Positions 6,302-63,139 of a stretch of 64,000 nucleotides of DNA are shown one piece after another. Source of the DNA: Zasmidium citrigriseum (Eukaryota; Ascomycota; Dothideomycetes; Mycosphaerellales; Mycosphaerellaceae); contig NHNW01000052.1 of NCBI GenBank assembly GCA_002786025.1, forward strand, positions 62,001-126,000. The letters are read 5' to 3'. Position numbers and translations under genes: made by a program. Numbering within the stretch: position 1 is the first letter of the stretch; the number at the start of each line of letters is the position of its first letter. The notes below the pieces were generated by a model, which was not told where the DNA came from, searched no databases, and worked only from the letters and a program-made list of their open reading frames with translations.

Positions 6302-9019
6302 TTACAAGACCAACTCCCGCAACGAACTCAACGCCTCCTTGATCTGCGGACTCGGCGTCCGACTCGGCCGCTTCGCACTCAAGAGCACCTGCATCTCCTC
6401 CTCCAACCCTCTCTCGGTCATGATGTCCTGGACACTCCGCCCCAGTTCATCTCTGGCCGACAGATCCGGATTGCCCTTGGTCGCGAGCAGTTTCAAGATC
6501 TTCATGTCACCATTGTCGAGAGCTTGTAGCACAGCGTTCCATCCGCGGTACATCAGATTGATATCTGCGCCCATTACGAGGAGGTGCTCGATGTATGACA
6601 TGTCGTCTTCGCGGTGACGACGGATGGCTTTGATGATGGGGAGATGTTCACCAGGGAGGTTGGGGTCTGCGTTGGCTTCATCGATGAGGTAGCGGAAGAT
6701 TTCCTTGCGGTTCTCGCGGATGGAGGTGGTCAGGGGACTGAAGACTCCGCCGTTCTTCTCTTCCACACTCATGCCTTTGCCGATGAGAAGTTTGACGCTT
6801 TCGAGTTGGTTGGCGACGACGGCCATTTCGATGGCGCCTTTGTTAATCATTGAGGTGGAGATGTGTGGAAGGAGTTTGGCCAGGATCTTGGGGTTCTTGA
6901 CTGCCATGCTGATCGGCCAGTCCTGGCCGCGGATTGCTGGGTTTGCGCCGTTGGCGAGGAGGAGGTCGATCATTTCGAGACGATTCTCTTTGATGGCTGT
7001 TGTGAGGGCTGTCTGACCGGTCGAGGCACTGCGGACGTTGACGTCGCAGCCTTGCTTGAGCAGGAACTGCAGTGCTTCTTTGCGGTTGTGCGTGACGGCG
7101 TGTGCGATGATGCCCTTTGGCGTATGAGGGTTGGCGCCGGCTTTGAGAAGACGAGGTAGGAAATGCGCTCGGTCATATGTAATGCACTTGTAGGTGGGGA
7201 ATTCCAGGGCCGTGAGATTGGGGTCGGCGTTGTTCTTGAGCAGCAATTCGACGAAGTCCTCACGGTTGTCACGGATGGCGGAACACAGTGGTGTGTAGAT
7301 GCCATCCTTCTTGGCGTTGACATCGACGTTGTGCTTGATCAAGAGATCGACGGCTTTGCGGGAGTTGATTGAGGTGGCAAGCTCGAGAACCCCAGGGGCA
7401 CGACGGAGGTCCGATCCTCTCTCGAGCAGAACTTCGAGGATCTGTGGATGGTGGACGGCGGGCCAGAGGACGATCTTTGGACCAGGCTGGTTCGGATCCG
7501 CCCCATGGTCAAGAAGCATCGTTACGAGATCGGCTCTGTCGGCGTCGTTGATGGCTTTGAACAAGGGCGTCTCGCCGCGACCATTCTTGTCGTTGGGAGA
7601 AGCCTCATAGACGAGCATGAGTTCAACGAGGCCAATCGGGGTGCTCTTGTTCATTGATTGCGTAAAAGGTGTCTCGCCGTTTGACATAATTCTGTTGGGG
7701 TCGCCTCCGTACTGCAAGTAGAGATGGACAAAGTGCGACTTGGATCCAGTCAACGAGATAGCAAGGGGATTCTCGCCGTATGGACCCGCACAAACATTCG
7801 CGTCGGCCCCGTATTTGGCGAGCAGCTGGGCAGCTTCGAAGAATGAATGTCCAGTTGCGGTGTAGAGCGGGGTTGCACCGTCCTTATCCTTCCCGTTCGC
7901 ATCGGCTCCAAAGAGCAGCAGCAGGCGAAGACTCTCGAGGTCATGGTTGACAATGGCTGTACTGAGATGGCCACTCTCAGGTGGAACGCCACAGTCAAGT
8001 AGCTGCTCGGTCGTCTTGTGGTCCTTCTGTTGCACTGACGTGATGAGGGCGAGCTTTGACTGTTCTGATGCTGGGCCAGTCTTGCGCTTTGGCGTCCACC
8101 TTTGCATTTTCGACGGGTCCACCTTGACGCGAATAGGCTGCTTCGGGATCTTCTCGCCAATGGCATGATACTGCGTGCCATTGTCGTGCGAGAGCATCGA
8201 TGTGATTGATGTAATATCAGAGGCGTTGTCATTCGCTGGGGCCATCATCACTGAAGATCGATCAGAAAACGTCGGCGATCGCATGTGGGTGGTCGTACTG
8301 GTGGGGCTGGTGACTGGTGGGCGATCCAAAAGCGCACCCTCTGGCAGACTTGGAAAGTATCCATCTCGCAGGGAAGATGTCCTCGGACCATATCCGTCCC
8401 CATTTGGCGCAGGTGGGAGAGGTCTTCGGTCGGGCGACATTTCGGCGAGGGCGTGCTCCTGCGGTGACAGGGGAGTGGATAATGACTTTGCCCTTGTTGG
8501 ATCCGAGGTCTCGAGAATGGCTGCGAGTGCAGTGTATCCTATTCCAGCGGCCGCCTCAAGCTTGCCGTCGCCGAGGACAGAGGAGAACATGAGTGCGCTA
8601 ATGCTCAATGCAGCACGGCATTGAGCGAGGCATAGTCTCAGACGTTCAATCTCTCCATCAGCCAGCATCAGCTTCAAGCCTCTCCCAAGCTTTCCAAAGC
8701 CTTGCTTCCTCTCTCCAGCGAGCAGCTTGTTGACCACCTGGTCAAGGACAGTGAATGCATTCCTGGTCTGGTTGAATCGGTCGCGGAGCTCTTGGGATAC
8801 ATCGTTAGGAAACTTGGCAGACGATCTTGCCAGACCAGCCTTCGCGGGAAAGAGTGCTCTCGAGGCCTCGAGGAACTCTATGGCGAGCTCTTTGAAGCCA
8901 TTCCTGGGTCGCTTGGAGATCGAGAGGTACTCAAGGGTGTGGACAGCGATTCCATTGCCAAGGGCGATCGTGTTCGTGCAAAGTTCCAGCAGAGTTTCTT
9001 TAGCCTTGCCGGGAGCCAT
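6302..9019 (-). CDS. Large ankyrin-repeat protein with fungal helical N-terminal domain, 905 aa
   Basis: Single exon. The ATG at 9019 (MAPGKAKETLLELC...) is preferred because the frame upstream of it has no ATG and reads as leader. Residues 1 to about 190 form an all-helical region resembling the N-terminal domain found on many fungal ankyrin and NACHT-type proteins. A disordered Pro/Ser linker (about 190-310) ends in a basic patch (MQRWTPKRKTGP). From about residue 320 to 880 come roughly 15 ankyrin repeats, recognisable by repeated DGATPLYTA, GETPLFKAI and LLLKNNADPN elements. Ankyrin arrays are protein-binding scaffolds. No enzymatic domain is visible, so the partner and pathway are unknown. 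Confidence 0.88.
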   Translation of the reverse strand: MAPGKAKETLLELCTNTIALGNGIAVHTLEYLSISKRPRNGFKELAIEFLEASRALFPAKAGLARSSAKFPNDVSQELRDRFNQTRNAFTVLDQVVNKLLAGERKQGFGKLGRGLKLMLADGEIERLRLCLAQCRAALSISALMFSSVLGDGKLEAAAGIGYTALAAILETSDPTRAKSLSTPLSPQEHALAEMSPDRRPLPPAPNGDGYGPRTSSLRDGYFPSLPEGALLDRPPVTSPTSTTTHMRSPTFSDRSSVMMAPANDNASDITSITSMLSHDNGTQYHAIGEKIPKQPIRVKVDPSKMQRWTPKRKTGPASEQSKLALITSVQQKDHKTTEQLLDCGVPPESGHLSTAIVNHDLESLRLLLLFGADANGKDKDGATPLYTATGHSFFEAAQLLAKYGADANVCAGPYGENPLAISLTGSKSHFVHLYLQYGGDPNRIMSNGETPFTQSMNKSTPIGLVELMLVYEASPNDKNGRGETPLFKAINDADRADLVTMLLDHGADPNQPGPKIVLWPAVHHPQILEVLLERGSDLRRAPGVLELATSINSRKAVDLLIKHNVDVNAKKDGIYTPLCSAIRDNREDFVELLLKNNADPNLTALEFPTYKCITYDRAHFLPRLLKAGANPHTPKGIIAHAVTHNRKEALQFLLKQGCDVNVRSASTGQTALTTAIKENRLEMIDLLLANGANPAIRGQDWPISMAVKNPKILAKLLPHISTSMINKGAIEMAVVANQLESVKLLIGKGMSVEEKNGGVFSPLTTSIRENRKEIFRYLIDEANADPNLPGEHLPIIKAIRRHREDDMSYIEHLLVMGADINLMYRGWNAVLQALDNGDMKILKLLATKGNPDLSARDELGRSVQDIMTERGLEEEMQVLLSAKRPSRTPSPQIKEALSSLRELVL

Positions 9020-37124: not shown

Positions 37125-39497
37125 CTACTTGCTGGTACCATTCGATAGAGCTGGACTTCCCGGGCTCCCGGCCATGAGTGTGTGCTTCGCCTTCTTCCGG
37201 CCGCTGAGGGTATCGACGATCTGCACCAGAGACATCCAGAACTCGTCCTTTGGACGACGGTCCTTCCAGTCGGTCTCATCCCGCTCGATCTTCTCCATGG
37301 GGCTGAACTTGACTCTGGCGCCACGGATACCGATGACGGCTGCCGACATGGGATCGTTGGCAATCTCGTCCTTGGACTTGCCGAACATGCTCTCCAAGTA
37401 TTGAAGGGATTTGACACCGAAACGTGCCGCGCGAACACGATCCATTGGCGAAGGCACGCCACCCTGCTGCACGTGTCCGGGCACGGCGTATCTCGAATCG
37501 AACTTGCCGCCGCTCTCCTCCTTGATGCAGTCGGCAATGAATTCGGTCGTGTACACGGGGCTTGCCTTCTCGTTGCGGAGGATGATCTTGCCCGAACGCG
37601 TGTGGCCTCTGTCGGCAGCGAACTGCTCCTTGAGGAACTTGATGTCCTCGACTAGCATGTTGAGATGGATGCCTTCTTCGGGGGTGTACACAGCGAGGGC
37701 GCCAATTGAAAGGCCAGCAATAGTGGCAATGTATCCGGAGGCTCCACCCTGGGTTTCTACGACGAACACTCTTCGGCGAGATGCCGATGCAGACTGCTTG
37801 ATGCTGTCGCAGTAGTTGATGAGGGCGTTCAGACATGTGTCGGATCCAAGGGAGAATTCGGTGCCAGGAACGTTGTTGGAGATGGTTGCTGGCAGGCAGA
37901 CCATGGGGATCTTGAAGGCATCGTACTGCTCGCGTGCTTTTCGCAGTTCGGACACAGCTGTAAAGGCCTCGAAACCACCGACAACGAAGAGGGAATCGAT
38001 CTTGTATTTCTCAAAGCAATAGGCAGTCGTCGTGAAGTCTTCAGATGGCAGGCCGCGGTTGGTGCCGATCTCTGAACCACCCCGAGATGCCCAGTTCTCC
38101 GCTTCGAGCCAGCTGACTTCCCTCACGGAACCGAGAGGCTTATCGTCGTGATGACGGCACAATCCGGGAAAGCCGTTATGCAGTGCAACCGGAGTGTGGC
38201 CCTTGGCAAGACAGTATGCCACTGCAGCGCGGGTGGTGGCGTTCATGCCTCCAGCGGGTGCTCCGACGTGGATAATACCAACGCGCATGCGCTTCTCCTT
38301 TGGAAGAAGTAGGTCTGTCTTGTCTGTTGCAGTGGTGATGTTGAAAGCATGCAGGAATTCTTCAAATTCGGCGTCTCTGCCCTTCATTGCTTCGTCGAAG
38401 TCTTTCTTTTCGATATGAGCTGCAACCTCTTTCGTCGCCTTGATTGCTTCCATGAGATCTTTCCGCACGATCTTGTTCTCGACGATGCAAATGACGGGCG
38501 AGGGCGTTTCTGGGGTGGAGTCGAGGACGGCTTTGACTGCCTCGACACCTTGAAGCGTTGCGAGCATACGGTCGTAGGCGCATGGTGCACCACCACGCTG
38601 GACGTGGCCAAGAGTGGTGACCCTGGTATCGAGGCCGACCTTGTTTGTGAGCAGATCCTTGACCATGGTAGGAGTTATGTGGTTGAGCTGTCGGTCGTGT
38701 GCTCCTTCGGCCACAATGACGATGGTCTTTCGCTTGCCCAGTTCACGGTGCTTGCGAACGATCGAGGCCATCTCAGATTCCCAGTTCTCTGAGGGTGGGT
38801 TCTCTGGGCAGAAGATGAAGTCGGCTCCGCAGCTAACGCCAGCCATGAGAGCGAGCCAGCCGCAGTGTCTGCCCATGACCTCGACGACGAAAGCACGTTG
38901 GTGGGACAAGGCGGTGGAGTCGATGTTGTCGATGGCTTCACAAATTCGGTGGAGAGAGGTGTAGCATCCAATGGTAGCGTCGGTGCCGCTGAGGTCGTTG
39001 TCGATTGAGCCAACGAGACCCACAATGTTGAGGTGTCGGTATGGCTTCACGGCATCCTCTGTTCGCTTTCCAGTCGATACAAGCTCATCCAGCAGGCTCG
39101 GCCATTCTGCTCTGAACTTGTCTGCTCCTGTCAATGATCCGTCACCACCGCAGATGACTAGTGCGTCTATCCCCTTCTCGATCATGTTGTTCGCTGCGGT
39201 TAGGCGGCCGGCCCGCTCCATGAAGGCCTTGCATCGTGCGGTGCCAATGAGTGTGCCGCCCTCTGATATCCAACCTCTTACATCTTCCCACTGCATCTCT
39301 TTGATCATGTCGCCGCCGTCCACAAGACCCTGATAGCCTTCGTAGACGGCATATGCTGTGCAGCCGGAGGCCAGCGTCTGCCTCACTACGGCGCGCACTG
39401 CTGCACTCATTCCAGGAGAGTCGCCGCCAGAGGTCATGACGGCGATTCGCTTCTGCCCGTAGGGCATAGCGGGCGGTGTTAGGGTGATTTGAGCCAT
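37125..39497 (-). CDS. pfkA: 6-phosphofructokinase, fungal tandem-domain type, 790 aa
   Basis: Phosphofructokinase makes fructose 1,6-bisphosphate from fructose 6-phosphate and ATP in the cytosol and is the controlled step of glycolysis. The protein has the eukaryotic double structure. The catalytic half (about 15-390) shows [56 protein letters not shown] and LGHVQRGG. The regulatory half (about 400-770) shows the diverged equivalents [54 protein letters not shown] and [15 protein letters not shown]. The start ATG ([20 protein letters not shown]) is well placed and no intron is needed. Allosteric control by fructose 2,6-bisphosphate, AMP and ATP is expected from the family. Confidence 0.96.
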
Positions 39498-40344
39498 TGT
39501 CGTAAATTGGGAGAGGGGGAGGCGAGAAGGGAGGGTCGAGGGAGTGCGTAGGTGTCGAGCTCAAGCAGGTATTAATTTTTATGTCGAGCGGAAGGCGGTT
39601 GCGTATAGAATGTTGGGTGTTGGTAAGAGCTTTTTGCAGACGGCGCCCCACGCTGTGAAGTCACCGGGAGCCACTTGCTCTCAATCGATAAGCGGCCTCT
39701 TCTCGGCAGAATTGCTTGTGACGATGGAGTTGGTCGGGCCCCGCGGCGGCTTGCTGCTATCTGTGATCGTGTAAGTAGGATGTCATATGAAGGTCGTGGA
39801 GAAGTTCTGGTGTTGTGATAAGAGTGAAAAAGCAGGCAACTCACCGATCAACGCCTCGAGGCTCGGCGGCGTTCACGAGCCAACTGACGCACGGCTAAAA
39901 GCAGAGCTCTCGGGAGGGCAACCTTGTTCCTTGAAGCCTATCTGACGTCTTAGCGCGGGAGAGGTGAAGATGAGAAGATGAATGTGGGAGAGAGAAGTCA
40001 ACGTTCAAATATCCCATCAACGAATTTCACCTTGGCGACCGTCGCTGTCCGGATGGCCAAGATGAGTTTGCGAAAGCACAACGCCGCCAAGCCAACAACA
40101 GTCATGTCGGAGACACGGGTCGGCTGCTCAACCGTCCGTGGAACAGCAACATCCATCATCATCCGATTCATCGCTTGACAGCCTTTGCCATCAAGAGGCC
40201 ATGACAGCCAACCTTGCTTCGACGACTCATCCTGTGCTACCAGACCGCGCGCTGCCGCGAGACGGAGGATATTGCCTCGTCTGTTACTTGCTGGACCTTC
40301 AGTCCTACTGAGGCCACCATCTCCCAACATTCTCCATCAGCACC
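39498..40344. other. Divergent intergenic region (PFK / disrupted F-box gene)
   Basis: About 850 bp between divergent start codons, holding the phosphofructokinase promoter and that of the F-box gene. Short open frames occur on both strands but none is convincing. Confidence 0.45.
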
Positions 40345-41759
40345 ATGGCCACTCAACTCGCCATCCCATACGACGTCCTGTTACTCATTTGCGAGCATGT
40401 GAGTCTTGCTCACCGACCGAGTCTTCGCGAATTCGCGTTGGTGTGCAGGTTATGGGCTTCCATCGCTACCACACAGTTGCATCGTAGCATCAGCTTCACA
40501 GTCACTAGTAGACTGCGTCTGGAGCAAGACGTTGACTCTTGTAAGGAAGTACTACAACGGCTTTCTAGTTTCAAACATGTCCGACGTCTGCGCATTGAAG
40601 GTCCGGGCCCCTATGACCCATCGTGCAACTTGAATCGCTCTCTGCCCCGCTGGCGCCCAGCACCGCGTCAAGATCTTGGAGAGGACCGCTATACTATCGA
40701 CAACCATGAGATGGGTCTCTTCGACGACAATGGGAGAATCATACTTATCAATTTGGGACCATGCCCCGAGCAAGCATGGTGGCCCTTGACAGACCTCGTC
40801 TCGCTGCTACCTGCGCTTTCAGATTTTATTTGGAACTCCCCCCAACAGGTGCCTGACAGTCTTCTCCATATTCTGCATGAGTCTCGACCGGAATGCAAGC
40901 TCTGGATCAACGACTGGCGACTGACCTCGCCGCATACTCCTGCTGTGGCCGACAATGAATGGAGCCTCTTGACCTCGCCCTGCCTGCACGCCATCAGAAC
41001 TGTTTACACCAATGGAGGCTATGAAAAAGTCGCCATTATGCAAATGGCTGCTGGCTTGGCTCCAAATCTGAAGAAAGTGTCATTCGTCAACGAGTACGCT
41101 GAAGATGGTCCGGACACCCCTGGAAGGCCTCCGTGGCAGGGCAAGAAGTGGAACAGGCACTCGTTGCCCTTCAGGAAAGGCGCCTTGAAGTCCTTATCAC
41201 TGCATCGAACTCATGACAGTGTGATCGAAACCTGGAGCAACTACACCGACTTTGAAGCGCTGAAGCATTTGTCCATATCTAGCTCACCCTATCGAATCGA
41301 TCTGCCAGTCTTGAGTCGGTACTCCCTTCACAACCTCGAATCTCTGGAGCTGGAGATCCGTAAGGTCAGAAATAAAGATGAACCGTGGTTAGCCACAGTG
41401 CAGCAGTTCCTGCTCCACCTGTCTCCTCTTTCCGCGCTCAAATTAAGAGGTCAACTCCACCTGCTGGTTCTTAACGCGATCCTGAATCATCATGGCCCCG
41501 AGCTTCAAGTTCTGCGGCTACTACAGTCGACTGACCCGCAAGAGCGACCAACGACATCTCTGGACAGGACATTCGACACCTCTTTCCTTATCGAGAACTT
41601 GCCCCGATCATGTCCACACCTACAAGAACTGACGATACCAATACGTCGCTCACGGGGTGACCAGAGCGAAGTCGCTTCCTACAAGTCTCTCGGAGCCTTA
41701 CGCAAACTTCGCCGCCTTGATCTGACACTTGACTGCTCGGACTACTCCGTTCTCTGGGC
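40345..41759 (+). pseudogene. 5' half of a disrupted F-box/LRR gene (codons 1 to about 471)
   Basis: The ATG is in a good context (ACCATGG). The N-terminus (IPYDVLLLICEHV, LREFALVCRLWASI) is an F-box-like segment that would bind Skp1 in an SCF ubiquitin ligase. The rest has leucine-rich-repeat-like stretches (LKSLSLHRTH, LKHLSISSSP, LESLELEI, LRRLDLTLDCSDY), the usual substrate-binding part. At codon about 471 (VLWA) the frame enters the transposable element and ends four codons later at 41773-41775. The missing C-terminal part lies at 54194-54730, in the same frame once the insertion and one duplication copy are removed. This half carries no internal stop, so the insertion is probably recent. 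A truncated protein could still be made. Confidence 0.85.
41752..41759 (+). repeat. Target-site duplication, left copy (CTCTGGGC)
   Basis: Eight bases of F-box coding sequence directly before the element, identical to 54194-54201 after it. An 8-bp duplication is typical of hAT-type and some other cut-and-paste DNA transposons. Confidence 0.85.
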
Positions 41760-41777
41760 CTACCTCCTAAATTAGAC
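41760..41777 (+). repeat. Left terminal inverted repeat (18 bp)
   Basis: CTACCTCCTAAATTAGAC. It pairs with the reverse complement of 54176-54193 at 14 of 18 bases, including the first eight. Confidence 0.75.
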
Positions 41778-42639
41778 AACTGGGGATTGAAAAGGTTGGA
41801 TGGGCTGCGCACGTGATTCAGCTGGCTTCTTCTGTTTTCGGATTAGTGGATTTTTTTCGCCAGCCAATTACAACACACCCTATCCTTTTAATCCCCGAGA
41901 GTCTAAGAATACTCTATATAACTATATTACCCTCGAAAACTAAATCCTTAACTACTATACTTATAACTTAGTAAAGACGTCGAGGCGATAGCGTAGGTAA
42001 TTACGATATTATTACCGTTCTTAGAATTAAAATCTAATAAGCCGCCGTTAAGAAATAAGCGATTACGTATAATAACTCCCCTATAGCCTAGCTAGCTTAC
42101 TATAGGCTAGATAATTACTAAAAATTAACCTCTCTATTTCGATAATCTAATACTTAGAGGCCCTTCTCTTACCTTCTATAGACTTAACTCTAGTTGTCCT
42201 AAAGATCGCCTAACGTCGTTTAGGCCTAATCTAGCGCTAGTAGGTAAAGCGACGATAAGGTCGACCCGAGCTCTATATAGACTAACCCCTAGAGCTTTAT
42301 CTAATACTCTCTACGATTATTTTCTTTACTAGTAACGTAGTCGAGTCTATACTATATAGCCTATAACTAATTTTTAAAGTAAAGCTAACTAGCGGCGACG
42401 ATACTAAGACCCTATTAGGCTACGAAATACTACCTCGAACGTACTAAAACTACCTCGTAGTTATATCTAAGTTAAAGGGAAAGTAGCCTAAGGAGCTATA
42501 GCCCTCGTCGGGCTTATTACTACTACTATCCTCTAGATAGCTAGAGTAACCCGACCTAGAGTAGCCTAAGCCTACGTTATTAGACTAAGCTAAAGCTAGA
42601 GAGCGTCCTAATCTCCGCTCTAATACTAGCCTAGAAATA

Positions 42640-45480
42640 GTAGAGGGCCTCGGTCTCTAGATTAGTCCTAAGGGTACTTAAACCTCGCGCTATCTAAGCT
42701 AGAAGAAGGCTTCCTTTATCGAGCCTAACGAGGAAGATAATAATAATAAAGACGACGAGGATAATAACCTACCTACTAGCCTATTTAGTACGTATAATAA
42801 AGATATATTTAACCTCGAAGAAGAGTAATAGCTTAGCGACGACGAGCTTAGTAAAGAGGAGTAGGATAAGATTAATAGTAAAGGCGCTACTAGAGCTACT
42901 AACGAGTTCTAGTATACTCTAGATATAGACGCTAACGAGGAGTAGAACGACGCTAACTTCCGTAAGATTATACGCCTTATAGCTTACTATAAGATACTAA
43001 TCTAAGAGGTTATACGTCGCTTTATTAAGGATAGTAAGAAGTAGAAGAACTATAAGAAGACGAGGATATACTATCGCCGAGTTAAGATAATCTAGGACTA
43101 CGTATTTAAGGACGAGAAGTTTATATCTATACGTAAGGTTCGATAAGAGCTAAAAGGTCTCGTTAGTATTAGATTCTTCGGCTAGTACTACCTAGGTAAG
43201 ACTAATAAGCCTAAGGACCTTACTAAAATCGACGATATTATCTAGACTAATACTCCGACCTAGTATAACTTAATCTAGGATATATTACCTAACCGTCGAG
43301 CCGGGTAGAAGGACTATAAGTATAAGAACGTACGCGATATAATACGTAAGCGTATAATAACGCTAACGGCTATTATCGTTAACTCGATCGTAACTAATTC
43401 GGCGTCCTAGTAGTAGAAGGCGTTAGGTATCTTCTTAGTAACCTCTAGCGTTAAGCGTCGTATAATTACCGTCCTTAATAATATAGGTATCTATAGCTCG
43501 TACTAATCGATCTAGTATATACTATTAAAGAACGCTAATATATAAGAGAAGCGACTAGCTAAGATCGGTAAGGACCCGTAGATCTACGTCGTATATAATA
43601 ACTTTAACTACTAGTAGAAGCGTCGTAACTAGATTATTAGTAATATTAATTAGTAACTTAATATAACTACCTCCTTCGTAGGTATTTATCTAGAGATTCT
43701 AGAGACTAGGCTAAGTATCGATATATTAGACTATAATAAGTAGCTAGATATCGATAGTATCTTAATAGATATCTATAACGATACTATAAGTAGGGATATT
43801 AATCGCTAGTATATCGACTAGGCTATCGGATATCTATACGATATAGAGGTAAAGGAAGTCTTTATCGACTCTAGTCTCTAGCGCCTATAGTAGCCTAAGA
43901 TTAGTAAGCTCTCCTATAAGAAGACCGAGCTATACTCCCTTAAGATCTCTACCTATAACGAGGTATCCTTATCTAGTATATACGCTATATATAATAATAT
44001 CTAGCTTAACTTTCTTAAGATAGATCGAGAGGCTAACTTTAAGAAGCTACGTATTACTATCGGCGATAATATAACTATTATCCGTATATAGAGTATAAAG
44101 TCCGAGAGCGTCGAGAGCGAGAAGGACTACGATAAGAAGGACTAGCTATTACTAGCTACGACTAGGTAGTTCTATACCTTTATAAATACCTACTTTATCC
44201 TTCTTTCTACCTACTAGGTATCTAATAAGGCTAGAGAGTACCTCGACTACTACTTAGCTAATAATACGGAGTTCTTTACTATAAAGGGTATTACTAACTA
44301 GAAGCCTAAGTACTTCTTAATCTAGGGACTAGTTTACCGTAGCTTCCGTAGCCGAGTTAATAGTCTATTCGTCTAAGAGCTACTAGACTAGAAGCTAATT
44401 ACGTTTAATAGCCTAGTCGATACTAGTAGTAGTCCTCGTAGTAAGGAGAGCCGTATCGATACGGTAAGGACCGCTATTACTAACCTAACGGCCTAATAGT
44501 ATCTCGAGATTATTAACGAGATCTAGTATAAGGCGTTTACTATAGATACGTAGGCTAGTAAGATAACCTCTAAGTTCTCGTAGTAACGTAGTCGTAGCCT
44601 AAATATCCTCTCTAATCCTACGACTAAGCTAGATAACGCTTTTATAACGATAAGTAGGATATTATAGGAAATAAGTCTATTTATAACCGTCTATAAGGTA
44701 GTTCGTATATAAGACGTTAGACACCTCTATCGTACTATCGCCTATCTTATCGTCGCCTTTACTAGTACTAGAAAGACTAACTATACCTAGTAGATAGTAT
44801 ACCTCTACTAGCTTCTTAACGCTATAGACGACGACCTCTATAAAGTAATCTTATCGATAGGATTCGTTAATCCTTCCGGTAAGCGTAGTAAAGCTATAGT
44901 AGCGGACGAGATACTTAAGTTATATAACCTTAAGTACTCTAAGGATTTAAAGTATTCGACTAGCGTTAATTATATCGAAACCCTCCGTAAGTACGCCCTT
45001 AACCGCGAAGCTACTTATATCCTTCGCTCTACTTTTAAGACTAGTATTAGATACTAAGGTACGAATACGTATTCCTATAAGAAGGTATTTATAGACGTAT
45101 TTACGCTTAGTAATAAGATAGTTATTAATAGCCTCGCTCGTTAGTAGAAGTTCGCGGATAGCTAAGATCTAGGTACCCTTTTAGAGGATATCTCGTAGAT
45201 TAGTATCGAGGTACTCTAGGCTAGGGTCGACGCTCTAAATAAGGCGAACTAGCTATACGTAAAGGGCGTAACCTTAGTATCTCGAGACTGTATCGATAGC
45301 GAGGAAGAGTAAGTAGACGCTAGCGACGAGCGTAATAATCGTAGACTAATCGATAAGGCGATTATTAACGACGATAACGACGAGCTAGAGATTACGAGGA
45401 TAGTATAGATAGGCGTTAAGGGCGACGAGGAGATTAGTAAAGTAGAGGCTACTAGTAAACCTAGTACCGACTTTATAAGT
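42640..45480 (+). pseudogene. RIP-killed reading frame resembling DUF6589 proteins
   Basis: Read on the plus strand with TAG/TAA taken as former CAG, CAA or TGG codons, a long frame appears. It starts with an acidic stretch (about 42.7-42.9 kb) and includes a segment reading roughly DPWIYVVYxNFNY (about 43572-43615). A second part (about 44690-45060) reads TSTRKTNY..., then SxGFVNPSGKRSKA, KYSKDLKYSTSVNYIETLRKYAL and STFKTSIRYQ. The order V-Y-D-N-F-N, then a membrane-free helical region, then V-N-x-S-G-K resembles DUF6589, a domain common in fungal mobile elements. Dozens of stops and no ATG mean it is dead. The family call is tentative. Confidence 0.45.
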
Positions 45481-45510
45481 AAGGCGTATTAAGAGGTTAA
45501 TATCTAGGCG

Positions 45511-45688
45511 ATTTAGCTCTACGTAAAGCGTTAAGTAAATTATACTTTATTTACCGTAGAGCTAAATTAATAGCGTAGAGCTAAATTAAGGGTATTAGTA
45601 CTAGAGTATACTATTAGGCGTAGAGCTAAATTATATACGTAGAGCTAAATCGTATACGTAGAGCTAAATCGTATATATAGAGCTAAAT
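45511..45688. repeat. Cluster of 12-bp repeats GTAGAGCTAAAT, block 1
   Basis: Perfect copies at 45556, 45575, 45620, 45639 and 45658, a one-base variant at 45677, and one inverted copy at 45511-45522. Spacing is 19 bp in several cases. Such clusters often mark subterminal transposase-binding regions. This block directly follows the DUF6589-like frame. Confidence 0.75.
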
Positions 45689-46256
45689 CGGTAGCTATTT
45701 AATAGACTTTAATATAGTACTACTAAGACCTCCTTTCGTACGGAGCTATAAACCTAACTTAATTAACTACTTCGCTATCTCTTAAGTACCCTATCTTAGG
45801 ATATAGTATAGCGTCCTTTACGAGAGATATATCTAGCGGCGAGGTAGCGGGCTAGGTATAGTACTAAAGGTACTTATAATAGTCGATCGACTATACGTCC
45901 TATTAAATAAGTAAGATATATATAGGGCGGCTAGTAAGCTTAGTAACGGTCGAACTTATAGCGGTTAGGCTTTTCGGTATAGTAGTAGACGTAGACTTAT
46001 TACTCGACGATAGTAACGCTAACTCCTTATAGTACGAATCCTAGCCTACCTTATTATATCTATCTACCTATAAGACGTCGCTGTAAGTAGTAGTAGTAGT
46101 AGTAGTAATCGCTATAAGTAAGGTAGTTAATCGTCGGCTCCGAGTTAGATAGCTTCGATAGTAATTCTAACTATAGATAAGCTTCGCCTCTACCTCTCGA
46201 GTAATCGCTACTACTCGTACTACCCCTTTAGATATTAACGCCCCCTCTAGAGTAGC

Positions 46257-46330
46257 TTCTAGAGCCGCCTTTTCTAGAGCCGCCTCTTCTAGAGCCGCCT
46301 CTTCTAGAGCCGCCTCTTCTAGAGCCGCTA
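46257..46330 (+). repeat. Tandem array, 15-bp unit TTCTAGAGCCGCCTC, about 5 copies
   Basis: Copies start at 46257, 46272, 46287, 46302 and 46317, with one change in the first and a diverged last copy. The unit is a multiple of three and could once have coded Ser-Arg-Ala-Ala-Ser. Confidence 0.85.
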
Positions 46331-46674
46331 TCGCTACTACCTTAATAACGGAAGCTAGGGCTAAAGGGTCTAACTATAGTAAGACGAGTACCGTAAGATT
46401 CTACGAGGTATTATAGCTAGGTAATTACCTCCTAGATAAGATTAAAACCTAAGGTATAAGCTAAGTATAGTACTATTACGCGTATTAAGGAGATAGACGC
46501 TAGAGTCGAAGTACTAGCCTACGAATAGTATCGACGGCTAGGCTCGATATTTAGGCCTTATTAGAGGTATACTAATCTAGCCCGAGCCTAGTTTAACGGA
46601 AAGAGAGGTAGAAACAAGTATACTCGGTATCGTTATAACGGACAAGAGTACGTATAGTAGGAAATAGAAGTCGC

Positions 46675-46709
46675 CTAGTCGTCTAGTCGTCTAGTCGTCT
46701 AGTCGTCTA
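46675..46709 (+). repeat. Short tandem array, 8-bp unit CTAGTCGT
   Basis: About four copies in a row. CTAG is abundant throughout the RIP-mutated tract, so this may be a product of RIP acting on a simple repeat. Confidence 0.7.
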
Positions 46710-46997
46710 CCGTTAACGCTATCTTAGTACCCTTCTACCCTACTACCCTCTCTAGTACCTTAATCTTAAATATATAGCTAGTACTCGTAGTCTTCTAGGC
46801 CTTAGCTAGCGCGACTTTATCGTCCGCGTGTCGCTAGTATCGTACTATCTACCTATAATTATTAAAGGCCGTATAATCTCTAAGCGAGCTCTATACTCTA
46901 GGCTTTTATATACTAAAGTTTACCTATTACGTTATATTAGCGTAAAAGCTATATATTTTAATTGAAACCTTACCTACTATCCTTTATTACGTCTTAA

Positions 46998-47047
46998 TAG
47001 CGTAGTAGTACCGCGGGTACTAAACGTAAAGTCCCTCGTTCGAATCC
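46998..47047 (+). other. tRNA-like A-box/B-box pair (possible SINE or tRNA relic)
   Basis: TAGCGTAGTAG (46998-47008) fits the Pol III A-box consensus TRGYNNANNNG. GTTCGAATCC (47038-47047) fits the B box, at tRNA-like spacing. The acceptor and T stems do not pair well, so this is not a functional tRNA. A RIP-decayed tRNA-derived sequence is possible, and so is chance. Confidence 0.25.
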
Positions 47048-47660
47048 TAACGTATATACGTAGTACTATAGGTAGGCCTACGTAAAGGGAAGGTATACTC
47101 GTCCTTATTACGACGAGCACCTTAGTACGAAACTTAACTTAGTATATCTATCCTTACTACGACGAGTACCCTCGAAAGAAACTTAGTTTAGTAGCGTCTA
47201 GTCTTAACGTTATACCCTAGAAATAATACTTCCTTTAGGAGGTGTTTCCTTTAAACCGAACTTAATATACTAAATTTACTACCTTTAGGATTAGCGTCCT
47301 TATTAGACGCCCCGTTTATCGTATAATAATTAAAACCGATATAGGATTAGCGTCCTTATTAGACGCCCCGCCTACTATAGAGTAGTTAAAACTAACTAGT
47401 ATAACTTTATAGCTAGGTACTCGTAACTATTACTACTTTAGTAACTAATAAAGGTATAGGCTATAGCTCTTACTAGAGGCCCGTTATTACTATTATACTT
47501 ACTACGGAAATAAAGGTTCGCCCCTTATACTACCCCTCCTTTACCTTATAGTATTATAAGGGTTTATTTTACTCTTTTACTAGATACTAAAGTTCGGAAG
47601 GCGAAGATATAGTTGTTACCGCTAGGCTCGTATATATATAGATCGTTTAATTATAACTCG

Positions 47661-47710
47661 TCTAGTCTAGTATCTAGTATCTAGTCTAGTCTAGTCTAGT
47701 CTAGTCTAGT
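47661..47710 (+). repeat. Tandem array of CTAGT
   Basis: Interrupted run of the 5-bp unit CTAGT with TAT interruptions near 47671-47680. Confidence 0.75.
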
Positions 47711-49400
47711 TACTAGCCTATCGTTAACGCCTCTCTATCCTCTACCCTTCTTACTTTCTATCCCTTCGCTCTACCTCTTCGCTCTACCTCTTTACTCTAC
47801 TACTCTACTACTAGCCCTCCGCCCTTTACTCTCGTAGCTCTACTAGCGGGCCGCTACGTCTTAGTAACTCCCGCTTATTATCGCTATTTATAGTAGTATT
47901 ATCGCTACTAAAACCTTACCTACGCTAATATTATAAGTCGCTACCTACGAATCTTTATATACGCGCGACTATAAATCTTCGCCGCTCGCGCTCTTCTTTC
48001 TTCTTCCTTTTAATAACCTCTATACTAGTATAAGATAATAACTTAGGTTACTACCTCCGTCTCGTTAACGGTAGGTAGTAACTAGCTATAGTAGTTACTC
48101 TATCCTACCTAACGACGTTAAACTAAGCGGTCTAGCTTACGATAAAAACCGAGTAGTCTAGCTTACGATAAAAACCGAGCCGTAGGCTAGCTACTATCTA
48201 CGTTACTAAATAACCGAGTACCTTTAGAACAGCCTATCTCGTCCTTTATAACGTAAAACTAAGTACTACGAAGGTCTAGAAGAGTAGACTACTAGACCGC
48301 TTTACTCTAGTAGAGGTCTAGAAAAGTAGGATACTAGACCGCTTCGTTCTTTCGTCCGCTATAACGGTAAACTAGCCGCTAGCTACGGCGTAATATATCC
48401 TTTATCCTCTATTCGGAATCGATAAGATTCTAGTAGGTAGTAACGCTCTAACTACGATAAGTTACTATTATTATTAGGTTTGCTACTACTAAGCTATAGC
48501 TAAATATACTCTCTCTATCCTTACTAGAATCGATAAGATTCTATCCTATAGTAGGGCGCGCTAACTACGATAAGTTATTATTATCTTCTTATTTAGTCTT
48601 CTTCGCCTACCTAAGCTCTAATTACGCTAGTTATTAACTTAGCGAGTTACCTCTCTTACCTATAAGCTAGCTACTTATAGGCCTAGTATAAGACTATCTA
48701 GCGTTAACTCGCTTAGGCGATCTCTAAGAGGCGTAGGGTTTAGGGGTTTAGCTTAGAGTATCCTTAAGGGAGGCTCTTAATAGCGTAAGGTATACGATAT
48801 ATCTACCTCTTTTAACGCTTATCTTCGTCTAAGGCCCTTAGCTTACTAGGGTTATCTCGATATCGCTCTAAATACTATAACCTAGGCGTACCTTAGAGTC
48901 TACTTATAGGCTTCTAAATCGCGCTAAGGTTAGCTTATTAGATTAATAGCCTCCCTACGCTTAACTTAATACTACTTTAGTTACTAATTAAGAATATTAT
49001 AAAGGCTAATATATAATATACCTTCTACCCCCCCTCTAGGCGAGAGTATTAGTAGATTACTATATACTAATACCTAAGGCCCTTATCTTCCTCCTACTTA
49101 TAGTCTTCTACTTATTATTAAGAGGCGAGGTTGTTTCGGTAGAAGAGGGCTATACGCTATAAAGGACGGAAAGCTTTTTAAGAGCCTATAGGGTTATTAT
49201 ACGATTCGCTCTCTAGTATATTAGCTTTACCTACCTAACGTACGATATAGCTCTATAGAGTATTACTAAGACCCGTACGTTCTAAAAATAAGGCCCTATC
49301 TAACAATTAAGCTATATATATCTTCCTAGGCTTACCTTAGGCGATAAGTACGATATTTAGTAATAGATAGATAGATAGATAGATAAGATAAGATAAAGTC

Positions 49401-49460
49401 GGTAGATTTAGCGGCTTCGTATAGGTAGGCGGTAGATTTAGCGGCTTCGTATAGGTAGAT
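49401..49460 (+). repeat. 30-bp tandem duplication
   Basis: Two adjacent 30-bp units starting GGTAGATTTAGCGGCTTCGT at 49401 and 49431, identical except for the last two bases. A shortened relative (GGTAGCTTCGTATAGGTA) recurs near 49590-49607. Confidence 0.8.
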
Positions 49461-49481
49461 CGAGGATTCTATAGTAGCGAC

Positions 49482-49576
49482 GTAGAGCTAAATCGTTAAT
49501 AGGCGTAGAGCTAAATTAAAGAAGTCTATTATACTAGGGTACGTAGAGCTAAATTATCGTTAGTATAGAGCTAAAT
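49482..49576 (+). repeat. Cluster of 12-bp repeats GTAGAGCTAAAT, block 2
   Basis: Perfect copies at 49482, 49505 and 49543 and a one-base variant at 49565, in the same orientation as most copies of block 1, 3.8 kb away. Confidence 0.75.
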
Positions 49577-49709
49577 CGTAAATATCTTCGGTAGCTTCGT
49601 ATAGGTACGTAGGTACGTAGGCGATAGATTTAGTAGTACTAAACGTATACGGAGGGTAGTAATAGACGCGATAGCGATAATATAAGAAGCTTTAGTAATA
49701 GATATAGGC

Positions 49710-49857
49710 GTTAGCGATAGATTCGGTAGTATATTAATAGTTAGGAAGCGATAGGAGCTAAGATCTAGCTACCCGTAAATTTCGTAGGTAGCTTTAGCTA
49801 CGATCCCGCTAAGTCCTAACTTTAACCTATTAATATACTACCGAATCTATCGCTAAC
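49710..49857. repeat. Large palindrome: perfect 31-bp inverted arms around an 86-bp centre
   Basis: The arm at 49710-49740 is the exact reverse complement of 49827-49857. The centre contains a further small inverted repeat (GCTACC...GGTAGC). Because RIP acts on both strands, perfect pairing after RIP means both arms were hit in the same way or formed later. Confidence 0.85.
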
Positions 49858-50399
49858 TATCTATCGAATCTATCGAGAACGAAGACTAATATATTTATTA
49901 AAAGCGCTTTTAATCCGTCTATCTACTCTATAGCCTACGAACGAGCCTAAGAAGAAGCCTACGATATCTAGCCTCTAACGCCTACTAGTCTATAATAAGA
50001 TACGATTATAAAGAAGCGTATTATATACTATTAGTTACGGCTAAGGATAGTAGCTATCGAGAGGCTATAATATAGTAGACTATAAGCTAGGTCGGCTTAC
50101 TAAAGCTTTTATACGCTATATACTTATAGAGTATAAACCCTTCTACTTACTACTCTAGCTACTAGTACGACTACTAGCGTAACTACTAGCGTCCTTATCT
50201 ATTAGTCTACCTCTCTCTAAGCGAGTACGATCCCTCCTCGTACGTATAGACTAGGTTACGGTAGCGAAGGCCTAGTTAGCGTCCTTAAGGGTTATATCGC
50301 TATAGTCGGATAATAGTTAAGCTAACCGGCGCGCTATTAGAGGAGTACGAGTTAGACGACTAGTAGTAGGCGGTCTAGTCTAACCTTAAGGATTTACTA

Positions 50400-53300
50400 A
50401 TACCTTACGCTTCTAGGTAGCGGTACTACTCTCGGTAACCTACGATTAAGTCTAGTAAGCCTACGAAGGAGACTACTAAGACTAAGCCTAGAGACTACTA
50501 TAAATACTAGCCTATATCCGTAGAGAGATAGTAGTACTACTAGCCTAGATACTATCCTATAAAGCCTATCGACTCTCCTCTTCGACCTCTTCTAGTATCT
50601 TCTATAGCGTCGTAGGTACTAGTACTAGTACTAGAGCTATCTACGAATCGCTAGTAGTAGCGGCGGCCTACTCTACCTACTTAGCTACCTTCTCTCGGGC
50701 CTTCTTCTCCTTACTACGGGCTTTACGTACCGCCTTAATCTTCTCGTACTCGTCGTATATAGTATCCGATATATTAACGATCTCGGTAACTAGATTATCT
50801 ATAACGTTCTAATACTCTTAGATCTACCCCTTAAGTTATATAGGTCTAGTACTATCCTTCGCCTTCTAGACCTTATCGATAATCTCCTCGGCTATAATAG
50901 GAATATCCTAGTTCTACTAGTCGAGGCTAGTCTCTACCTTAAAGATAAGACTAAGGTCCTAGACTAGAGGATCCTTTATAAAGAAGGAAGCTAGTATAAT
51001 AAACGAGCGAGTATTATTATTATTATAGAAGCGCTTTTCTACTATCTCGGAGTACTACTTCTTAATAAGTAGTACGGTAAACGCTAGTCTAGTTCTAGCC
51101 CGTAGCTTCTACGGCTTCTACGATATACGCTTAGGCGGTAGAGTAAAGAAGTCGTCGTTATACTCGTCGTCGTACTTCTTATCGTAGATATTATAGTAGT
51201 CTAGACTACTAACGATAACCTTAACCGCTAGGTAGATCTTCTTATACTCCTAGAGGTAGTCGAGGATAACCTTACGTAGGTATAGGCTAGTACTAGTATT
51301 ATTATAACGATACTCGTTCTATAACTTCTAGAAGATTAACTTAATAGCCTTACGCTTCTTAATCTTGTCCTTAGTCTAGTACTTAGTAGCTACTTAGCTA
51401 TTAATAAGATTATCGTCCTCCTTATCTTTAATAATACCTTTACCTTATACCTTAAAGCGAAGCTAAGATTATAGACGAAGTTCGTAGTCTATAGTAGGAT
51501 AACGAGGATCGTAAGATACTAAACATAGACCCTTACGAGAACCTATTAATAATACTAACGCTAAGCGAGGACGGGTACGAGACTAGCGGCGCGGTACTCT
51601 CGCGCGAGATACGCTAGCGCTACGTAATCTCTATCGACTAGCCTACTATTACTATTACTAAGTATCTATACTAGCCTCTAGTATAGGCTTTAAGCTCTTA
51701 ATAGATTCGTCGATATAGTACGGTATAAAGAAGAAGGCGACGCTCTACTCGTCGCCTAGATTACGCCTACTACGGCCGAGCCGCTAGATTAAATCCTTAA
51801 GATCCTTCGTAATTAGTAGCTTCTACTAGATAACGAACTTAATATTAGGGACGTTAATACTAGTACTTAAAGAGGTAGTAGCGATTATAATTCGAATTAG
51901 GGACTCTAGCGACTTATACTTCTCGTACCTCTTATCCTTATCCTAATCTATAATAGTACTAGTATAGAAGGAAACGATAATCTTAACGTTAAGTTCTCGA
52001 GGCCTACTACCGTCTTCGTAGTACTTCTAGGCGTAGCTAGCTAGTAGATACTTAGTATCGTTAAGGAGCTATTAACGGACGTCCTATACGTTATCCTAGA
52101 CTCTATTACGGCTATCGACGAAGATTAGCGTCTTCTAGATCTTCCGAGGAGTACTAACCTTAACGCCTTCTTTAGTCTTCTCGCTACCCTTCTTAACTAC
52201 GAAGTATAGGTAGTCGAAGTTACTTAAACTACCCTAAGGAATAGTCTTAAAGACGTACTTAGTGTCTAGCCTAAACGATATTAGCTTACTTACTTACTTA
52301 AGAGCTAAACTAGACTAAGACGTACCTATTAACGCTTCTACGGATAATCTTCGTCTAGAATTCCTTAGGCCTAACCTTCCGAAAGCTAGTATACTTAAGT
52401 ATAAACTCTTCTATCTCTACGGATAGTATAGTAGAGTAACTAAGTAAGATAGTATCTATACGAAGGATCTTCCGTAGCTAGGCTATCTAGGTATACTTCT
52501 ATCTAAAGCTCTCGCTCTATTTCTTAACTAAGTAGACCTTATTAATAACTATTAAACTAATACGATCTAAGATATATAGCTTCTATAAAAGCTCGCGGAA
52601 GTTAGGTATAGACGCCTACTCTAGACTAAGGACGATAGTTTAGTATAGACCCTTCTCGATCTTATCGTATATCTCGGGATCTAGCTTCTTCGCTTCTATA
52701 TTAATAAAATAAGTATCGATAGCCTTATTCTTCTTTAGCTACTCGCTTACTCGACGGATATCTTCCTTCTACTCTTTACTAAGATAGTTTAAAGGGACGA
52801 TCTAGAGAATAACCTACCTAGTATTAGTATTATTTATTCCTAGAACTTATTTCGAGATTTCGAATTTATACCTTACTAGTTAATATACTATAGCTATAGA
52901 ATATTAAGCTCTTACTAGTACCTATCTTAGCGGCTATTAGGATATTAGTTTATCCGAAGATAAGTACCTAGGCTATATCTATCTACTATTACATAGGAGT
53001 ATACTTATAGCCGTCGGGATATAGGATCCTTAGGTACTTCTTTAAGCCTAACTTAATAATCTTCCTATAGTAGCTACTAGTATAGGGATTACTACTAGCG
53101 TTATATATAAGCTACTAGACTTCCTTTAAGGACGTAGAAGGACTCGAGATACGGGCGGTATAGTCGCGGAAGTACTTATCGACCTTATTACTTAAGGTAG
53201 TACTTAGTAGCTACGATATATTAGTAACTACCCGCCTTAATAACTACCTACCTCGATAACTACTTACCTCGATAACTACCTACCTCGACGACTACCTACC

Positions 53301-53450
53301 TATATAACTTACTAAAGCGACTAGTATAACGCTAAAGTCTAGCCTCTTACGAGTTACTACTAGACGGGGAATACGAGCCTAAGAGCCCGCCTACTACTTC
53401 TTTAAAGCTTTCGCTACCTTCTCTACTTTCGCCGCCTTCTAGCGTACTTT
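50400..53450 (-). pseudogene. RIP-killed RecQ-like superfamily 2 DNA helicase
   Basis: On the minus strand, with TAG/TAA read as former Gln/Trp codons, the frame shows SF2 helicase motifs in order. Motif I lies at 52930-52908 (AAK-x-G-T-x-KS, where AGT follows T and so derives from GGT under RIP, giving GTGKS). A segment follows with KTLIFVDSRNRVQDNV and ATTSLSTSINVPNIKFVIQ. Motif VI is at 51786-51763 and reads QRLGR-x-x-R; undoing T-A to T-G in two codons gives QRLGRGGR. The two motifs are about 390 codons apart, as in helicase cores. A charged, helical C-terminal extension runs to about 50.4 kb (KIKAVRKARSKEKKARE). Many stops and no ATG: non-functional. Confidence 0.65.
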
Positions 53451-54175
53451 TCTAGGCCCTATTAGATTACCTCTAGTCTAGTATACTACTTCTATAAGGA
53501 GGTAGGTAACGAGGTGTCTAGATAATAGAGTACTAAGGTATTTAGAGATAGAGGCGTCTAGGGGTAGAAGCGTTTATAGTAGATAAGGGACGGAAATAGA
53601 ACTAAAGCTACGCTATACGTTAGTACGGGCCGTTATAGTCTAGTTTATAACTAGAGAGATACGATAGGGGGTTATAAATATAATAAGAGGTCGTAAATAA
53701 GGCTAGTAGTCGTAAATAGACTAGGAGCTTCTAGCTAGATTTGCCCTCTAGCTTTATTATAGTATAATACCTATACTTTATAGTATTAAAATCTATATTA
53801 ATTTATAGAGAGTATTAAGGAGATAGAGCGTATATATTTTATTTACTTAGAAATATCCTATTTAGTTGTAGGTAGACTCTAGGGGGTATATATAGCAATC
53901 CGCTATAGTATACCCCTATTTTACTTAGACTACGTATAACTTTTAAGTATCTATATATTTTACTATATAATATATAAACCAAATATTTATTAAGCTTGTC
54001 CCCGGGTATAAGGCTAACTTTAAGTACGATACGCCCGGTAGTTGTTGTAATATCGCATTTCTAAGATTTAGTGATGGGGTGGATGGTAGCACAGTCGCAC
54101 GTTTTGTCCTCAGGCGCTCCGCAAGAGAGCTTGCCGAACGAGGCTAAACCGAGTTGGGCAAGCGGCTGGAGGAGC

Positions 54176-54193
54176 GCCTGACTTGGGAGGTAG
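54176..54193 (-). repeat. Right terminal inverted repeat (18 bp)
   Basis: The reverse complement reads CTACCTCCCAAGTCAGGC. It matches the left end at 14 of 18 bases; all differences are C/T or G/A. Confidence 0.75.
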
Positions 54194-54201
54194 CTCTGGG
54201 C
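54194..54201 (+). repeat. Target-site duplication, right copy (CTCTGGGC)
   Basis: Identical to 41752-41759. Here it encodes LWA in the same frame as in the left half of the F-box gene. Confidence 0.85.
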
Positions 54202-54730
54202 TGGCGAGGATCCCAGCGAGGAGTATTGGATCAAAGATATGGACGGGACCTGGTCGCCTCCCACCGAACCCGACTTCGATGATTTCGATCAGGAGATCTT
54301 TGAATCCAAATTCGTCGAGGGTCCAGAAGTGCGCAACGGGTATGTCGCCCGTGCCATGGTCAATGCTGCAGTAGACGAGACGCTGGCGAAGTCCATATTT
54401 CAGTGCATCTCGTCTGAGACGTTGCAGAGGCTGAGTGTTAAGACTACACATGGCGCTGTCTTTACTTGTCACGGCGGTCCTCCAAGACATTTGCTCTGGG
54501 TGATGGAACAGATCTCCCGTGACTGGGTGGTGGAGAGGAAGATACGCGACGACATGAGGAGTGAGCTGGTAGTCAGAGACGTCACTCAACCCCTTCCAAG
54601 AGCGCGATTTGAGCTCAAAGGACCGACACTTGAGGTCTTCCAACGGGTATGGCCGGGACTCCCAGAGGAGAAGAAGGAAGATTGGGCAAAGTGGTGGTGG
54701 TCGTATCCCTTGGAGGTGCATTCTTCGTAA
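54194..54730 (+). pseudogene. 3' half of the disrupted F-box/LRR gene (178 codons)
   Basis: The frame LWAGEDPSEEYWIKDMDGTW...DFDDFDQEIFESKF... to ...WWWSYPLEVHSS ends at TAA 54728-54730. Just before it, TAG at 54191-54193 is the last triplet of the element. This half overlaps the left half by the duplicated 8 bp and continues its frame, giving about 647 codons for the intact gene. A start at the internal ATG 54239 would give a 163-aa protein, but nothing suggests that it is an independent gene. It is open throughout, with no sign of RIP leaking in from the element. Confidence 0.83.
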
Positions 54731-61720: not shown

Positions 61721-63139
61721 CTAGAATCGAGCGTCCATCTCATCCAAATCCTGCATCTCCTCATCATCGCTCTCGACCTCTCTTACTCTTGGCTTTTCCT
61801 CATGATCGTCTTCCTCATCATCGCTACTCTCATCTTGCACCGTATCTGCAACCTTTCCTCGATCCGCCAAGCTTGCCCTACTTAGTCCAAGCGATAGGTC
61901 CCTCGCATCTTCTGGCGTAACACCTAACAACCTCGCCTGCTCAGGCGTCAAATCGACAATCTGCGGCGCAAACTCCCCCGTCTCATCATCTTCGTCGAAA
62001 GCAGTGCTCTCCATCTGTACTTGCTCGCCATCCTCCAGCTCCAGAACCCCTGAACGGGCGAAGGCGCCGCCGAACTGCCAGCCATGTTCCTGACGCAGGT
62101 AGTCTTCCAGGTCATCGAGTTCATCGACCACATCTGAGATGCCGGTGCCGGTCATGCCCTCCAGGCCTTTGCGGAAGCGAACGAGGAGATTCTTGAGCAG
62201 AGAACCGCCTTCGTCTGCAAGGTCGATCAGGCCGCCCTCTGCATCCTTGCAGTGTTGGAGTTGGAGCCGCAGGGCGGCGATGGCGTTGATAAAGAAGTCC
62301 GAGTTGTCCGCGACGGCGGCTTTGCAGGTGAAGATCAGCGTGAGGATGCGCTTCCACTGCTCGAGACAGGAGAAGTTGTTGATGGTGAGGACCATGAGGA
62401 AGCAGAATTGGAGTTCGCCGATGAGTTCTTCGGCATCGCCGCCTGTGCAGTGTTCTCGTGCGATGTGCTCGAGAGCCCAGGAGCGGTCTTGGGCGGCTTC
62501 TGTCCGCTCTCTTCCCGTCGCTCCCTCTCGCCATGTCTGCTTGAGGTCGATAGGTAGTAGATGAAGCTCCTTATCAGCCTGCAATTCTTCCTTGTCCTGC
62601 TCGTTCAACCCTGGAATGTCCTCCAAATCCCTTCTCGCCGAGCTTGCGGACGTCAAATGCCAGTGACTCGAGTCTCCTCCCGTGATCCTCGAAAGCAGCG
62701 CCTCACTGATGGCAGATGTCAGACTCGGCCAGTCGTTGACTTCTTCCTCCTCGTCCTCGTCCGCCTCGGGCAGTGTGCTCTTCGAGGTCGTCTGCCGGTA
62801 CGGCGTTAAACCCTCTCGCCAGAAACTTCCCAGGTTGGCTCGCCACCGTAGTCGTTCTGCTTCATCTGTCTCTGCCACTAGAGTCTCTGCTGCGGCGTTC
62901 CATTTCGCGACGAAGAGTGGCGTGCCGTCGGACTCGCTTTTGTTGGGTATCCTGAACCAGAGGCCGTGTCGCTCGGAGAATGCTGTGCTGGTTCCTGCGA
63001 AGGCGAAGTGGAAGCCAGAGGGTAGGTCTTTGACTCCTCGAAATCGCGGGGTGACAGTGAAGGAGAGCAAATCGATGCCGGCTAATGCTGATGCTGGGAG
63101 GCCCAGAAGAAGGAGCGCTGGCGAGTTGGCGGTTTCCAT
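61721..63139 (-). CDS. AAR2: U5 snRNP assembly factor Aar2, 472 aa
   Basis: Aar2 binds Prp8 in the cytosol during U5 snRNP assembly and is exchanged for Brr2 in the nucleus. The ATG at 63139 (METANSPALLLLGLPASALAGIDL) is the only ATG at the head of the frame and gives the family N-terminus. The N-terminal beta-rich domain shows FTVTPRFRGVKDLPSGFHFAFAG and GLWFRI. The linker is acidic, and the C-terminal helical domain shows ELIGELQFCFLMVLTINNFSCLEQWKRIL, the best conserved Aar2 segment. Downstream are helical segments and a strongly acidic tail (DESSDDEEDDHEE) not typical of the yeast protein. No intron, which is mildly ironic for a splicing factor. Confidence 0.9.
   Translation of the reverse strand: METANSPALLLLGLPASALAGIDLLSFTVTPRFRGVKDLPSGFHFAFAGTSTAFSERHGLWFRIPNKSESDGTPLFVAKWNAAAETLVAETDEAERLRWRANLGSFWREGLTPYRQTTSKSTLPEADEDEEEEVNDWPSLTSAISEALLSRITGGDSSHWHLTSASSARRDLEDIPGLNEQDKEELQADKELHLLPIDLKQTWREGATGRERTEAAQDRSWALEHIAREHCTGGDAEELIGELQFCFLMVLTINNFSCLEQWKRILTLIFTCKAAVADNSDFFINAIAALRLQLQHCKDAEGGLIDLADEGGSLLKNLLVRFRKGLEGMTGTGISDVVDELDDLEDYLRQEHGWQFGGAFARSGVLELEDGEQVQMESTAFDEDDETGEFAPQIVDLTPEQARLLGVTPEDARDLSLGLSRASLADRGKVADTVQDESSDDEEDDHEEKPRVREVESDDEEMQDLDEMDARF

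Follow-up and report, generated by a model that had tools for sequence, protein, structure and literature searches.

A probable DUF6589/helicase transposon with a RIP-mutated interior in a split F-box-like gene of Zasmidium citrigriseum

Two open frames that together resemble a single F-box-like gene lie more than 12 kb apart in the genome of Zasmidium citrigriseum, within a stretch of 64,000 nucleotides (positions 62,001 to 126,000 of contig NHNW01000052.1, assembly GCA_002786025.1). We refer to this stretch as the window, and coordinates are given in it unless a contig or the element is named. What separates the two frames, and what has become of the gene and of the DNA between its halves? 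Our reading, to which as a whole we assign a probability of about 0.88, is that a DUF6589/helicase transposon inserted into the gene, that repeat-induced point mutation (RIP) of its interior followed and spared its ends, and that the gene was truncated.

The ends of the insertion are sharply defined. An 8-bp target site duplication, CTCTGGGC, is present on the forward strand at 41752–41759 and again at 54194–54201, with inverted ends just inside, exactly at the positions that the earlier note had given. Among the lengths of 4 to 11 bp compared at this site, 8 bp is the sole exact duplication length. CTCTGGGC is found five times on the forward strand of the window, and the copies at 41752 and 54194 are those that directly adjoin the inverted ends; that 8 bp should agree exactly at a given site by chance has a probability of ~1.5e-5. 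Between the two copies, the ends, the duplication and the CA/TG content delimit a DNA transposon of 12,434 bp (41760–54193) with a RIP-saturated interior. Its ends start with CTACCTCC, and tip pattern and end-pair comparison define a left terminal inverted repeat CTACCTCCTAAATTAG (41760–41775, forward strand) and a right one CTACCTCCCAAGTCAG (54178–54193, reverse strand). The repeat is 16 bp long and identical at 13 of 16 positions, the three differences all being C/T or G/A, and a match this good or better is expected by chance with a probability of ~4e-6. Past the first 8 bp, the left and right ends have little in common by BLAST. In the right-end sequence, a 10-bp subterminal inverted repeat can be made out by eye, with its inner arm at 54111–54120 and its outer arm at 54171–54180.

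These ends recur at many loci. In the 44.4 Mb of the genome searched (148 contigs), the tip pattern gives 54 matches, against a single one for a reversed-pattern control; one tip variant with up to two mismatches gives 95 against 26, a noisier set. We examined 16 end pairs, made up of 13 that include the window's own, one split pair and two others, while 24 of the 54 tip matches are unpaired and carry no duplication data. The target duplication is exactly 8 bp in 11 of the 16 pairs and matches at seven of eight positions in two; one pair each has 9 bp, 7 bp (on C87) and no duplication (on C101). Two marks of cut-and-paste transposition are present, namely inverted ends that recur at many loci and a duplication of near-constant length. 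The earlier claim of a transposon insertion with an 8-bp target duplication is borne out by these abutting ends and their recurrence across the genome.

The paired copies comprise eight miniatures of 126–1049 bp, elements of 10.9–12.4 kb, and copies of 19.0, 38.6 and 56.6 kb. A DUF6589 match lies 2.0–2.9 kb inward of 13 of the 54 ends, and a helicase-gene region 1.4–1.6 kb inward of 12, in each case on the inward strand; none of the 54 ends has both. The helicase-region query was translated in a different frame from Helicase_C; the conserved stretch that it picks up lies nearby and probably belongs to the same gene. In the seven pairs longer than 10 kb, the window's included, the helicase region is near one end in all seven and DUF6589 near the other in six. 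The exception, on C94, has DUF6589 ~24 kb from the end instead of ~2 kb, which suggests nested insertions, and we therefore do not call the 19.0, 38.6 and 56.6 kb copies giant elements. Genome-wide, a convergent helicase region accompanies 20 of the 47 DUF6589 matches at a distance of up to 12 kb, and 34 of the 47 lie more than 3.5 kb from any matched tip.

Two stretches on other contigs, C1:927940-932209 and C92:311783-319764 (L008, L009, L003), look like the halves of one sister insertion, with the same 9-bp duplication ATATGTCGC on both outer flanks. An LTR retrotransposon, ~8.0 kb long and with ~212-bp LTRs on C92, breaks this copy at a shared 5 bp. The position of the halves on different contigs looks like the outcome of a translocation through the retrotransposon or of an assembly error.

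What does the element encode? We scanned all six frames of the 12,434 bp against Pfam, reading through stops and accepting E values up to 1; DUF6589, Helicase_C and one match below its cut-off were returned. The left part contains a degenerate DUF6589 (PF20231) gene on the forward strand, with approximate limits of 42706–45276 and the domain at ~43789–44952 (E 5.3e-25, stops read through). Differences from the copy on C1 over 42359–45358 fall on codon positions 1, 2 and 3 in a summed ratio of 122/70/197, a skew expected of a gene on which selection acted during the divergence of the copies. The read-through alignment, used as a protein query, had no homologue among 8000 candidates. On the reverse strand, a second degenerate gene carries a Helicase_C domain (PF00271) at 51763–51993 (29.6 bits against a cut-off of 23.5). 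The helicase is assigned from this one 77-residue Pfam match, and PDB gives no strong one (best E 0.05). Upstream, a stretch at 52289–52600, also on the reverse strand and in another frame, is conserved, matches stop-bearing places genome-wide and is probably part of the helicase gene. The DUF6589 gene is thus directed inward from the left end and the helicase gene inward from the right end.

Pfam labels DUF6589 as of unknown function, and the literature searched gave no match to the name. We take DUF6589 as the likely transposase, and the helicase as its probable partner, because of the arrangement of tips plus two genes and on the grounds of position and conservation. The element family offers a lead to the function of DUF6589.

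The middle of the element (45965–49880, limits approximate) has no recognised gene, and parts of it recur at many genomic places. Pfam searches with the frames of 45961–49002 gave solely below-cut-off matches, Helicase_C, found once more, was the one further match of the middle and right part to exceed its cut-off, and Rfam gave 0 RNA matches in the element at gathering score. Compared with the copy on C92, the stretch 45965–47758, which has no recognised domain, shows 0–2 transversions per 300 bp, fewer than most other parts of the element. Repeats with GTAGAGCTAAAT, partly at 19-bp spacing, occur at 45548–45707 and 49497–49578. A perfect 31-bp inverted repeat with arms 86 bp apart is found at 49710–49857, and the stretch around it (element positions 7851–8117) matches several loci on both strands.

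The closest named relative of the element is AcademH, the helicase-bearing lineage of Academ transposons, for which an excerpt of PMC10045372 gives duplications of 9 or 10 bp. AcademH is likewise a DNA transposon with a helicase gene, as Helicase_C above cut-off attests here, and an excerpt of PMC10799480 describes low-copy AcademH elements in Ascomycota among others. Together with the 9-bp duplication of the one sister insertion, these likenesses would fit an AcademH member with a slightly shorter duplication. Against the 9 or 10 bp stated for AcademH, however, 11 of the 16 pairs have exactly 8 bp and one has 9. We consider the odds of membership to be even and, with duplications that are for the most part of 8 bp, do not file the element as AcademH.

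The interior of the element carries the signature of RIP at saturation. RIP acts on CpA in repeats, with CA/TG depletion and TA excess, according to the part of PMC12543289 consulted, and both are seen here. The 12,166 bp of 41878–54043 contain 25 CA or TG dinucleotides in all. The ratio (CA+TG)/(AC+GT) is 0.017 in the element and 1.38 in 11 kb of flank, and TA/AT is 2.24 in the element and 0.44 in the flank, so that CA/TG loss and TA gain, by which RIP is recognised, coincide. All 47 genomic DUF6589 matches have in-frame stops.

The near-complete loss of CpA stops abruptly before the ends. From the positions of CA and TG, the left end is unmutated by RIP, with normal CA/TG, over 118 bp (41760–41877), and the right end is largely unmutated over ~150 bp (54043–54193). 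Eight ends have enough sequence, namely the window's own two, which are unmutated, and six detected by their similarity to these. CA/TG is normal in the first 100 bp of all eight, whereas 200–1200 bp inside the counts are 0–9 CA/TG against 98–121 AC+GT. A run of more than 120 bp free of CA/TG is first encountered 118–451 bp inside these ends, and the host DNA flanking them has normal CA/TG. With normal flanks and tips around a depleted interior, RIP therefore stops abruptly inside the element.

A second set of 12 ends was found by a pattern in which RIP changes are tolerated within the 16-bp tip, tips mutated elsewhere being missed. Summed over positions 17–50, these ends hold 38 CA+TG against 40 AC+GT, two of them being too poor to judge (C96:319670, 0 against 2; C96:308735, 1 against 1). 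Three ends are common to the two sets, giving 17 distinct ends in all. Heavily mutated tips escape such searches, and for this reason the sparing of every genomic end cannot be claimed.

The element provides a clean natural case for the question of why RIP halts abruptly before it reaches the ends of a repeat. RIP at repeat edges is not treated in the excerpted text of PMC12543289, though it may have been described elsewhere. If the pattern is general, transposons killed by RIP would retain functional ends, and a relative could yet mobilise them. A broader picture can be drawn, in which DUF6589 would be the transposase of a helicase-bearing lineage apart from AcademH, with 8-bp duplications and CTACCTCC ends, whose tips systematically escape RIP, so that gene-dead copies stay substrates in trans and miniatures are the surviving mobile form. 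We offer it tentatively, and think it rather unlikely to hold in all its parts.

For the window, the sequence suggests the following course of events. A terminal-inverted-repeat transposon of the DUF6589/helicase family would have entered the F-box-like coding sequence, staggered cuts made by the transposase duplicating 8 bp at the target; DUF6589 would cut and join, and the helicase may assist. RIP would have come after insertion, turning nearly every interior CpA into TpA and inactivating both genes of the element, while sparing the outer ends (118 bp left, ~150 bp right) and the host gene.

Alternatively, the element may have been RIP-mutated already on arrival, its unmutated ends having allowed an intact relative to move it in trans. 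Such a history would agree with the normal CA/TG in the first 100 bp at eight of eight ends and with the near parity at the 12 pattern-found ends (38 against 40), and miniature copies without genes have moved too. RIP after insertion, however, explains the same data with one step fewer, and no helper is now visible, as stops are present in 47 of 47 DUF6589 matches. We therefore regard arrival in a mutated state as unlikely, and retain insertion followed by RIP.

Divergence of the element from its nearest relatives amounts to ~12–13% of aligned bases. Relative to the nearest copies, the left part has 388 transitions and 110 transversions over 4,192 aligned bases, and the right part 684 transitions and 293 transversions over 7,637, with 96 and 937 gap columns, respectively, excluded. 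Because RIP blurs divergence, no insertion date is derived from these values.

Seven of the miniatures (L042, L043, L044, L045, L047, L064 and L065), of 126–610 bp, have the same tips as the large copies, with an exact 8-bp duplication in five and a match at seven of eight positions in two. CA/TG is near normal in the five miniatures measured, and the 1,049-bp L046 is partly mutated. In the broader picture drawn above, the miniatures would be too short for efficient RIP.

Two other classes of transposon resemble the element in single features. Duplications of 8 bp are described for Zisupton, and as usual for hAT, in the excerpt of PMC12730594 at hand, and both groups have terminal inverted repeats as well; the modal duplication of 8 bp would thus suit a hAT or KDZ (Zisupton) element. 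This assignment is nevertheless very improbable, given that the element has DUF6589 and a helicase, and that neither the hAT dimerisation domain nor a KDZ transposase is among the six-frame Pfam matches with E up to 1, in scans whose sensitivity RIP lowers. Starships are giant fungal transposons with DUF3435 as their recombinase. Some copies here are alike in their large end-to-end distance (38.6 and 56.6 kb), but these may merely hold nested insertions, DUF3435 is not among the six-frame matches, and the present family has inverted ends and a duplication of near-fixed length.

We now turn to the host gene. Its left part is an open frame on the forward strand at 40345–41751, comprising 471 codons when counted into the target duplication. 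Translation from the ATG at 40345 continues for five further codons and ends at a TAG (41773–41775) inside the element. The right part, at 54202–54730 on the same strand, has 175 codons and a stop at 54728–54730. As had been proposed, neither half has an internal stop, and removal of the element with one copy of the duplication would restore a frame of 647 codons: summing the coordinates, 40345–41759 and 54202–54730 give 1,944 bases, or 647 codons and a stop.

A protein search with the left half scored the 8000 candidates sharing most words and yielded 60 proteins at E ≤ 0.001. The best homologue, P0001 (662 aa), matches the left half over residues 7–471 with 48% identity, and its own residues 491–662 match the right half with 37% identity. 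The two matches are collinear, and P0001 therefore runs through the insertion point; P0003, a protein of 697 aa from Cercospora beticola, is also collinear with both halves. Nine further loci of this genome match the left half, eight in a single stretch and one in two, with open frames of 605–719 aa. Both halves are present in one open frame at seven of these nine loci (frames of 634–719 aa, one right-half match holding a TGA), and the other two have no right-half match. Stand-alone relatives of the right half were not found in an insensitive protein search of 15 candidates. The earlier note had named, as grounds against a single gene, homologues ending near codon 475 and a separate gene downstream; the continuous P0001 and the single-frame paralogues speak against both. 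Although each half is an open frame of its own, a pair of neighbouring genes with a repeat-rich stretch between them is scarcely credible and we reject it, in view of P0001 being uninterrupted across the junction, the single frames with both halves at seven of nine paralogous loci, and the target duplication being exactly in frame.

The identity of the gene is less firm than its being one gene. The F-box-like region covers residues 7–51, and the N-terminus scores 23.8 bits against F-box-like PF12937 (cut-off 24.3) and 18.2 bits against Pfam F-box (cut-off 20.5). Of the earlier designation as a split F-box gene, the split stands while the F-box label is weak; as the scores are just under the Pfam cut-offs, F-box-like is a fair name, and a role in an SCF complex can be suggested from sequence.

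Loss or truncation of the gene, as first suggested, is upheld, since it is either dead or cut to 471 of its own codons plus five. The product would now be at most 476 residues without the conserved C-terminal part, or nothing, and a truncated product would probably be without full function. The intact frames of the halves fit a young insertion, such as the recent event, perhaps differing between isolates, that the earlier note had suggested, and may also reflect constraint on the truncated product; an allele with the site empty was not seen. Identity of the left half to the genomic paralogues is 26–35%, and at this distance we find no near-duplicate to cover the loss. The genome has at least nine diverged paralogues, and the disruption itself is ordinary; more interest attaches to the transposon family, which is little known and has a helicase as partner gene, than to the broken gene.

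On the reverse strand at 37125–39560 of the window is a long open frame whose sequence resembles 6-phosphofructokinase.
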